Shown: piece by piece, positions 6,619 to 9,015 of the stretch
How the letters are laid out: every line of letters begins with the position of its first letter
How positions within the stretch are numbered: the stretch's first letter is position 1
Origin: Chloroflexota bacterium
Lineage (GTDB): Bacteria; Chloroflexota; Dehalococcoidia; Bin125
Direction of reading: 5' to 3'
DNA length: 38,361 nt
Assembly: GCA_009838915.1 (NCBI GenBank)
Contig: VXQT01000012.1
Location: 68,671 to 107,031 of the forward strand
Position numbers and translations under genes: made by a program
Notes under the pieces: generated by a model
What the model was told of the DNA's origin: nothing
Seen by the model: only the letters and a program-made list of their open reading frames with translations
Database searches by the model: none

Positions 6619-9015
6619 ATGCGCCTCACCGCTCGTCACATCGTCGTTATAGTTGGGCTCCTCTTAGCGCTCGCCGCAGCCACGTTCGAAAATGCCGTGC
6701 CGTTCTCGCAGGCGCGGGCTCAAGAGGTACATGGCGCGGAAGTTCGTCTTGCCGCCCGAGACTCCGGCTCAGGAGCCGTCTCCGTTGGCCTGCAATATCG
6801 AGTCAGCGGCAAGTGGCAGTTCCTTGCGCCGACTCGCAATGTCCTGCCCGCTACCGCCGGCTCTGACCGCTGGCTTGTCTCCTCCGGCTTGGAAATCGAC
6901 GTAGCCCAGGCTAGAGCCGAGATCGGGATTCAGAATCGGCGCTGGACCACGACTTCCGGACCTGAACAGTTCGCTATCACTCTCGGCGACCGCCGTTATC
7001 TCGCTCGCTGCGGCATCCTGACCTTGTCGCTTCTTAGCGACGGCCTTGAGCTGCAGACAGGTACGAGGAACTGCGAAGATATCATCACGGTTACCCCGCC
7101 TGAGTTGACCGATCCGACAGGTGTCGGCAAACAGGTAGTACGAATCGCCGCGCGGCGTCTGTCATCGGGAAGCATCGAACTGGGCCTGCAGCGACTGGTT
7201 GACGGTCAATGGGAGGTGTTGCGTCAACCTGTTCGGCCCGTGCTGTTCGTCCGTTCCAGCTCGACCTGGCGATTCACTTCCGCCATAAACCTGCCGCGAC
7301 TAGCCGGGGACGTTTCGGGCGAGTTGAGGCGTGGCGTGTCGATTACGACGCGGAACGGCGAGTTTGATCTCGAAGTTGACGGGCGCGCCTATCGCACGCA
7401 TTGCGGCGTGCTGGTGCTCGACATCCTGGCCGAGCACATCCTCGTAGACACGCGGGATGACCAATGTCAGCGGAGCGTTCCGCTGCTCACGATTTGTCCG
7501 ACATCCAACTGCGATGTCCAACAGAACGCCGCTTACGCGTGGGAGTCGCGACAGATTGGTTCAAGCCTCGACAGTGTCGAGCTGACGCTGTCGCAGGCGC
7601 GTGGAGTGGTCAACGCCCTGTTCGACGACTACTTCCCTCCGTTTGATCCTCCGCGTGTGAGCTTTAGCGACGAACAAGAACATGGCCACGGATCCAGGAG
7701 TGAGATCGTGCTTGGCATTCGTACGCGGAATCTGGGCGCGGCGGTCCACGAGCTTGCGCATGCGCTGGTTGATCGCTCCAACGTCAGGGATGCCGGGCAC
7801 GGCGGCGCCTTCATTGCGATGCTGCTTGACGTATGGGAGCGATACTTCCCAATCGTCGATGTCGAGGCAGCCCGCGACGACGCCCGCCGCTCGGGTCTGG
7901 AGATCGCGTCAACGCCACCGGCCCGCGCCCTCCGCAACGAGGCCGCAGACACCCTCAGCGCCCTTCTGTGCACCCATCGCTTGCTCTCGATCGAGTTGTG
8001 CTTCGCGTCTCTCGGCGTGATGCCTTCAGCGACAGAGGAGTCATTAGCCGGTCGCTACGTAGGTTTCGGAGGCGCAGTCGCCGAGGGGTTCTGGTGGAGT
8101 GCGCACAAGGATGACGGTGGGCAATTTCGGACACACTTGTCATTGGATTCGAAGGATGCACCGTATGGACAGTCAGTCGCGCGACTGAGCATCGAATGCA
8201 ATGTCGACAATGTGCTGGAGGTAGATGTCTGGTGGCGCGGCGTACGGCAGCTCCCAGCTTCGTTCACTTACCGCTTCGGCGATGGTGGTGCCACTACTGC
8301 GTCATGGCGGCAACTGACCGGAACCTGGGGCAACGACTCATGGGCCATACACCAGGCGCCGGATGCGACCGCGTTCCTGCACCAACTCAGTTGGCAGGCA
8401 CGGTTTGGCCAGCCACTGGTCGTTCAGTATGAGCAGTCCGGCGTAGACCACCAGGCGACATTCGACCTCACTAGGATCTTTGACACACCTGCGCAACGCA
8501 ATCTGGCGCGGTGCGGCACGGAGGCGGTCGCCGCCAACAACGACGGGCTTGTGATCGACTTCGGTAGCGCCGGAGACGACTTCTGGTGGGGCGTGGACGA
8601 GGACGACAACCCGCCGACCACCTGGGTCGTGAAGCAGACAAACATCATCGACTCTGAGCGCAAGGCGCGGCTACAGATCAAGTGCGAGGATGGCGACCTC
8701 AAGTTTGATCTGCACTGGGAGGTGGACCGCGATCTGCACCAGACTGTCAGGTACATCGCTGGAGGAAGAGACAGCGTTGATGAGGAGTGGCGGATCGGCA
8801 CTTCAACGTGGGGCGCTGACGAGTACAAGTGGGCGGGCAGCAATGATGCTGAGTCGCTCATAACCTCTTTGGCTTGGCAGGCGCAGTCCGAACGATGGTT
8901 CGCTGCCAGAGTCTGGGAGCGTCACAACACTACACGCAGCTATGCGGCCACCTGGAACCTCGACGGCCTCTTCGACACGCCCGTCCAACCCAATCTCGCC
9001 CGCTGCTCCCGCTAG
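6619..9015 (+). CDS. Secreted putative zinc metallopeptidase with duplicated N- and C-terminal domains
   Basis: I do not recognise a named family for this 798-residue protein. Residues 1-34 form a Sec-type signal peptide (hydrophobic run 8-21, possible cleavage after QARA). Two related units of about 110 residues follow (roughly 37-152 and 170-285); each has a pattern of a short VRLAAR/VRIAAR strand, a Y/RLVSGKW- or LVDGQW-like turn and a single Cys in an ARCG/THCG strand. The central part contains AAVHELAHALV (HExxH at 377-381) and GHGGAF with a third His at 394, a zinc-peptidase signature of the HExxH(x12)H type. The C-terminus carries two units of about 150 residues (roughly 482-638 and 645-798), each beginning with an FWW motif and ending in FDTPxQxNLARC. 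Peptidase activity is inferred from the motif. Start: ATG at 6619 after GGTGGG. Confidence 0.8.
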   Translation: MRLTARHIVVIVGLLLALAAATFENAVPFSQARAQEVHGAEVRLAARDSGSGAVSVGLQYRVSGKWQFLAPTRNVLPATAGSDRWLVSSGLEIDVAQARAEIGIQNRRWTTTSGPEQFAITLGDRRYLARCGILTLSLLSDGLELQTGTRNCEDIITVTPPELTDPTGVGKQVVRIAARRLSSGSIELGLQRLVDGQWEVLRQPVRPVLFVRSSSTWRFTSAINLPRLAGDVSGELRRGVSITTRNGEFDLEVDGRAYRTHCGVLVLDILAEHILVDTRDDQCQRSVPLLTICPTSNCDVQQNAAYAWESRQIGSSLDSVELTLSQARGVVNALFDDYFPPFDPPRVSFSDEQEHGHGSRSEIVLGIRTRNLGAAVHELAHALVDRSNVRDAGHGGAFIAMLLDVWERYFPIVDVEAARDDARRSGLEIASTPPARALRNEAADTLSALLCTHRLLSIELCFASLGVMPSATEESLAGRYVGFGGAVAEGFWWSAHKDDGGQFRTHLSLDSKDAPYGQSVARLSIECNVDNVLEVDVWWRGVRQLPASFTYRFGDGGATTASWRQLTGTWGNDSWAIHQAPDATAFLHQLSWQARFGQPLVVQYEQSGVDHQATFDLTRIFDTPAQRNLARCGTEAVAANNDGLVIDFGSAGDDFWWGVDEDDNPPTTWVVKQTNIIDSERKARLQIKCEDGDLKFDLHWEVDRDLHQTVRYIAGGRDSVDEEWRIGTSTWGADEYKWAGSNDAESLITSLAWQAQSERWFAARVWERHNTTRSYAATWNLDGLFDTPVQPNLARCSR

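Follow-up and report, generated by a model that had tools for sequence, protein, structure and literature searches.

SprT and Spartan are intracellular proteases that act on DNA-bound proteins. They belong to a wider group of zincins, the SprT-like and YgjP-like proteins (PF10263, together with YgjP-like proteins picked up by its model), with which the protein described here shares a HExxH motif, a third His 12 residues on, a Gly after this His and, in most orthologs, an aromatic residue two residues later. It differs from them in staying under the Pfam cut-off, in being predicted to be exported and in being flanked by repeats. IalB, the invasion-associated locus B protein of Bartonella henselae, has a role in host-cell invasion and shares with our protein the predicted fold of its C-terminal repeat (PF06776; 3dtd). 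Lipobox lipoproteins, SLH domains and sorting C-termini provide the third comparison: like them, the N-terminal module reported below is a short terminal module on unrelated exported proteins, found at either chain end and, in the frames compared, not alongside a lipobox. Unlike them, it has no recognised Pfam or NCBIfam family, known ligand or sorting enzyme.

The source genome is of the same genus as bin125 (MPNM01000029), described as a metagenome-assembled genome binned from the sponge Aplysina aerophoba (PMC5649159), and Bin125 has been placed within the Dehalococcoidia (PMC10608941). Published SAR202 sponge genomes are reported to be without peptidoglycan synthesis genes (PMC6306507), a statement made about those published genomes. 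The literature returned by our search, as far as its accessible text goes, contained nothing on the N-module or on an exported SprT-like peptidase.

Domain organization of the protein

The gene is a single open reading frame of 798 amino acids at positions 6619-9015 (+ strand, as for all features below) of the window, that is, of the whole 38,361-nucleotide stretch analysed, which is located on contig G000:C11 of the 2.87 Mb source genome (G000). The product starts with a signal-like segment (residues 1-35; 6619-6723), in line with the signal peptide of the original prediction. Its hydrophobic stretch (KD15 2.86) lies 15 residues ahead of the first N-module, and the AlphaFold2 model has a helix at residues 3-25 followed by a low-confidence linker. 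The segment is weakly conserved across the aligned orthologs.

Two N-terminal repeats of ~123 residues and two C-terminal repeats of ~150 residues surround a central core. N-terminal repeat 1 covers residues 37-158 (7092 being its last position, from 6727) and contains Cys131 and Cys152; repeat 2 covers residues 168-290 (7120-7488) and contains Cys262 and Cys283. The C-terminal pair consists of C-module 1 (residues 486-636; 8074-8526; Cys527 and Cys632) and C-module 2 (residues 645-798; 8551-9012; Cys689 and Cys796). When alignments were scored as z against 1000 shuffles, the N-repeats (residues 36-158 versus 166-290) gave 37/107 identities and z 20.2, and the C-repeats (residues 485-640 versus 641-798) gave 48/145 identities and z 25.4, whereas an N-repeat aligned with a C-repeat reached only z 0.6. 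The protein thus contains two different repeat families, as had been proposed from the sequence.

The 12 cysteines fall in pairs, one per N-repeat, two in the core and one per C-repeat. Ten of them, including both in each N-repeat, are invariant in 8/8 aligned proteins, and the pair of C-module 1 is missing only in G001, where that repeat is absent. This conservation suggests six probable disulfides.

Neither Pfam nor NCBIfam has a family that is found in the 798-residue protein, even at E ≤ 10, so that the earlier view that no named family has this layout held in these two databases. No convincing relative emerged when the PDB was searched by sequence with the full-length protein or with profiles of the C-module, the core and the N-module. 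The full AlphaFold2 model, built from eight sequences, has a mean pLDDT of 74.2 and a pTM of 0.39; a model of this kind would not fix the relative placement of the domains, and we count this against our main reading. Whole-model Foldseek matches, mostly of immunoglobulin type across several domains, were set aside (rmsd mostly >14).

A distant zincin core

The core (residues 291-470; 7489-8028) is delimited by alignment A4, by profile comparison and by a helix-strand-helix arrangement in the model. It contains the predicted HExxH(x12)H: HELAH at residues 377-381 (7747-7761) holds putative zinc ligands and the putative catalytic Glu, and His394 of a GHG (7798-7800), the putative third zinc ligand, follows after 12 residues. 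H377, E378, H381, G393, H394 and G395 are all invariant in 8/8 aligned proteins, whose pairwise identity goes down to about 37%.

Alignment A4 joins to these eight proteins three more diverged ones (L044, L046 and L036). In profile-profile comparisons the core matched YgjP-like proteins with a probability of 92.2% (E 5.8e-7), SprT-like proteins with 74.0% (E 2.8e-5) and an M48-like control with 1.4% (control alignment of three rows). At the profile level the core is therefore closer to SprT/YgjP than to M48, another HExxH family represented here by those three rows, and the peptidase-like middle foreseen from the sequence can be given a type. The comparison used 24 of 30 loci (11 SprT-like, 10 YgjP-like and 3 M48-like), picked by the appearance of the HExxH surroundings, and left out L181, L202, L203, L206, L207 and L208; of these, L206 and L203 resemble further SprT- and YgjP-like cases.

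The Pfam SprT-like model touches three of the seven orthologs, with a best E of 0.082 that lies under its cut-off, and PF10263 had no match in the source genome at E ≤ 0.001. Because the profile match is strong but the Pfam cut-off is missed, we class the core, by sequence comparison, as a distant SprT/YgjP-type zincin and not as a member of PF10263. The hydrophobic N-terminal segment argues against an intracellular, DNA-associated role. The core profile had matches in at least four of 400 genomes sampled across the phylum, and the matches listed were all in this genus; the counts for core, N-module and C-module in this sample are lower bounds, since weak members were possibly missed.

A relative of the core in the same genome (L036 4192-5799, region of G000:C28:460533-461141) is without the zinc motif, with NRIAR replacing HExxH and GYG replacing GHG in alignment A4, and is likely a pseudo-enzyme. 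Its relatives in G005 (L046) and G017 (L044) retain the motif. The loss in L036 would mean that a non-catalytic role of the zincin fold exists in this genome.

C-terminal repeats with a predicted IalB fold

The C-terminal repeats had been described as starting with FWW and ending with FDTPxQxNLARC. Both repeats of the window protein have FWW, which is not kept in the orthologs, where GWYG, LWWL, LFWG and similar sequences stand instead; the ending stood the comparison better, since TPxQxxL..C near the repeat end is conserved in orthologs.

Structure prediction, among the checks suggested at the outset, gave a recognisable fold for the C-module and, for the N-module, a confident model with no clear relative (see below). 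C-module 1 (model residues 482-635) aligned by VIA-align with 3dtd_D, the IalB of B. henselae, at Z 10.6 and rmsd 4.1, with 139 of 145 residues aligned and 12% identity; the next unrelated row had Z 6.1. The pLDDT over this part of the model is about 56-85, and C-module 2 has the same order of strands and helix. The match surfaced in VIA-align only, 3dtd being absent among the best 50 whole-model Foldseek rows. The Pfam IalB model recognised 0/13 C-modules, had no match in the source genome at E ≤ 1 and had none above its cut-off in 21 genomes. A fold match that the family model does not recognise speaks for a shared fold and not for membership, and we accordingly predict that the C-module shares the IalB fold outside the IalB family. 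A further difference from IalB is that the window protein has tandem copies in a multidomain chain.

A profile search with this repeat found it in 14/20 genomes of the family and in at least 3/400 genomes of the phylum sample, where the matches listed were all of this genus. Besides the orthologs, the N-module also occurs on 10 of 17 distinct C-module frames in the fetched loci, some of the 17 being cut by locus ends. The genus also has a protein family of ~1170 amino acids (L033 5816-9301, L039 4940-8422 and L040 5012-8593) with two N-modules and then a series of segments ending in TPVQxNxxxC. This family appears to combine the two module types on a larger scale.

A lineage-specific N-module

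The N-module, as we call the initial ~57 residues of either N-terminal repeat, constitutes a separate family (profile A2), found in the window protein at residues 38-93 (6730-6897; E 5e-19) and at residues 170-224 (7126-7290; E 2e-14). The source genome has 31 N-module places at E ≤ 0.01. Within the family, the module is present in 18/20 genomes, with 10-47 places in each of the 15 genus members, 36 in G017, 7 in G018 and 3 in G016; the search found none in G015 and G019. At least 9/400 genomes of the phylum sample have it: four of this genus, G101 (two proteins, E 6.1e-9) and four with weak partial matches (E 2e-4 to 7e-4). The two stretches in G101 (L137 4096-4677 and L138 3377-3889) lie near the C-terminus of frames of 894 and 879 amino acids, which are possibly related to a PPC-domain protein of the source genome (L135).

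The 84 N-modules of alignment A6 matched six Pfam and five NCBIfam families with one member each (best E 0.022), which is chance level. PhpD, obtained in the PDB sequence search at E 0.034 over 27 positions, was likewise taken as chance. The module itself is modelled confidently (pLDDT 90.1), and searches of the PDB gave no clear fold relative (Foldseek best E 0.64; VIA-align Z ≤ 3.3, the best being 3.3). Any anchoring role is consequently read from context.

As to this context, other exported proteins of the genome carry the same modules as separable units, which was another of the checks initially suggested. The stretches fetched from the source genome contain 23 frames with an N-module. In 17 of them the module follows a hydrophobic segment at a distance of up to 33 residues, and none of these 17 has a Cys between the two. 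The module is near the C-terminus in four of the 23, and two are unassigned. Two giant frames, of 3252 amino acids in the source genome (L034) and 4772 in G008 (L141), end in two tandem N-modules, which follow Ig-like sequence (L034 4303-4800; L141 2726-3247); by their sequence these frames look like adhesins. A Pfam scan of 18 N-module proteins (two further scanned proteins were relatives of the peptidase) identified the sugar-binding Peripla_BP_4 in seven, the thioredoxin-like AhpC-TSA in two (the module of one, L136, being marginal), and one case each of Sod_Cu (Cu/Zn superoxide dismutase), sCache_2 and PPC; six gave no significant family. The module usually stands ahead of its partner domain. 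Sharing among so many exported proteins points to a general envelope role and not to a substrate-specific one.

N-module and lipobox exclude each other

In the source genome, none of the eight Peripla_BP_4 frames with an N-module has a lipobox; one of them, L224, has an N-terminus without a hydrophobic segment and may be incomplete. The module is absent from three Peripla_BP_4 frames, namely one with a lipobox, one with a TM-like segment and no lipobox, and a fragment. SBP_bac_5 proteins (family-5 binding proteins) present the opposite picture, with 0/16 N-modules and 15/16 lipoboxes, the 16th (L241) running into a poly-Gly stretch. Overall, a lipobox is present in 0/8 frames with the module versus 16/19 without (Fisher p 7.4e-5 for 27 frames, which span two protein families and are not independent cases). 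N-module and lipobox exclude each other.

Orthologs and evolution of the locus

Orthologs with nearly the full plan occur in six of the 14 genus-mates (G001, G005, G008, G010, G011 and G014), and the one in G001 has lost one of its two C-terminal repeats. A seventh is on contig VYAQ01000169.1 (L051 1-4020), labelled Gemmatimonadetes. Over 3538 bases, flanks included, this contig is collinear with the RHO1_bin_20 locus of G011 (L031) and shares 86.2% of its nucleotides with it, so that a transfer outside the phylum was rejected; it is probably a mis-binned Chloroflexota contig. The zinc motif is kept in all seven orthologs.

Four loci (L027, L028, L029 and L042) preserve the genes neighbouring this one, with identities of 71-98%, and the window protein itself is only 52-56% identical at the conserved locus. 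Against L027, L028 and L029 the gene has dS 1.63-1.72 and dN 0.38-0.41, compared with dS 0.35-1.11 and dN 0.008-0.217 for neighbour genes; for the M1 aminopeptidase, the rows against L028 and L029 were used for dN/dS, and the L027 and L042 rows and derived pairs were left out. The dN/dS of the whole protein, 0.16-0.24, indicates purifying selection. Third-position GC is 0.704 in the gene versus 0.797-0.912 in six neighbours. In G013 an open reading frame of 93 amino acids is a remnant of the gene (53% identity over 73 residues); at that locus (L042 5527-7837), the remnant and two open reading frames without counterpart at the window locus take its place. The fetched stretches around the orthologs L030, L031 and L032 contained none of the window neighbours. 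Rapid divergence, or replacement of alleles while the locus itself persists, would fit a surface protein, and the patchy distribution (long orthologs in 6 of 14 genus-mates, and one remnant) counts against our main reading.

Discussion

Our main reading, to which we give about an even chance, is that the gene encodes a surface-retained zinc endopeptidase whose N-modules are a lineage-specific retention tag. The endopeptidase would be exported by its signal peptide, as the hydrophobicity of the N-terminus suggests, and the exported protein would be stabilised by six disulfides and held at the cell surface by the two N-modules, members of a lineage-specific family of ~57 amino acids that many exported proteins without lipidation carry. 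The SprT/YgjP-like zincin in the middle would face outside and cleave proteins there, while the two C-terminal domains of predicted IalB fold would bind either the substrate or a partner on the surface or in the host matrix. We infer the proteolysis, the surface retention and the binding target alike. The module is read as a tag because of its partners, because it can occupy either end of a chain and because it stays apart from the lipobox. Further points that weigh against the main reading are the lack of matches to the SprT and IalB Pfam models in the source genome at the thresholds given, the absence of 3dtd among the 50 Foldseek rows, the motif loss in L036, the lack of a fold relative for the N-module and the fact that the lipobox contrast compares two protein families.

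The same module could instead assist export or folding, or mediate oligomerisation, from its place beside the signal peptide, with the peptidase released and soluble in the sponge matrix. Its position straight after the signal segment in 17/23 frames would suit such a role, as would several linkers that by eye end in a signal-peptidase-like A-x-A, and no fold relative names a ligand for it. We nevertheless find this rather doubtful: a folding aid is less expected at the very C-terminus, where L034 and L141 have tandem N-modules, and release would bring no obvious gain for binding proteins or superoxide dismutase, other binding proteins being lipid-anchored. Catalysis, too, might be dispensable, and the protein a binding protein or adhesin in which the zincin fold has lost catalysis or retains it only incidentally. 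The NRIAR and GYG of L036 provide a precedent in the same genome, and all but one of the five folded parts are repeats resembling binding modules; however, HExxH and the third His are kept in 8/8 proteins at identities down to about 37%, which would be difficult to account for if zinc chemistry played no part and leads us to regard this alternative as unlikely.

The evolutionary data could also be taken to mean that the protein turns over rapidly as a surface antigen, or travels as mobile cargo, its sequence driven by recombination and its biochemical details mattering little. The drop to 52-56% identity beside neighbours at 71-98%, the raised dS and dN, the lower third-position GC, the truncation in G013 and the repeat lost in G001 all agree with this, yet purifying selection across the whole protein and the retention of the zinc and Cys residues make it quite improbable in our estimation.

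Returning to the surface-retained peptidase, the proposed tag is a more interesting claim than the enzyme that carries it. In a broader form, which we put forward tentatively and hold at somewhat less than even, the N-module may be a hitherto undescribed tag with which a sponge-associated Dehalococcoidia family retains proteins at its surface. It would replace the lipobox by an attachment that is neither lipid nor covalent, for tens of enzymes and sugar-binding proteins as well as giant proteins resembling adhesins, and the zincin with its IalB-like domains may be one tool displayed in this way for work on the sponge matrix. Uncultured sponge symbionts of this group need some way to hold exported proteins. 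If the proposal is true, an exported branch would join a group of zincins whose known members are mainly intracellular, and a 57-residue tag at 31 places would offer a way into the surface proteome of such a symbiont from sequence alone.
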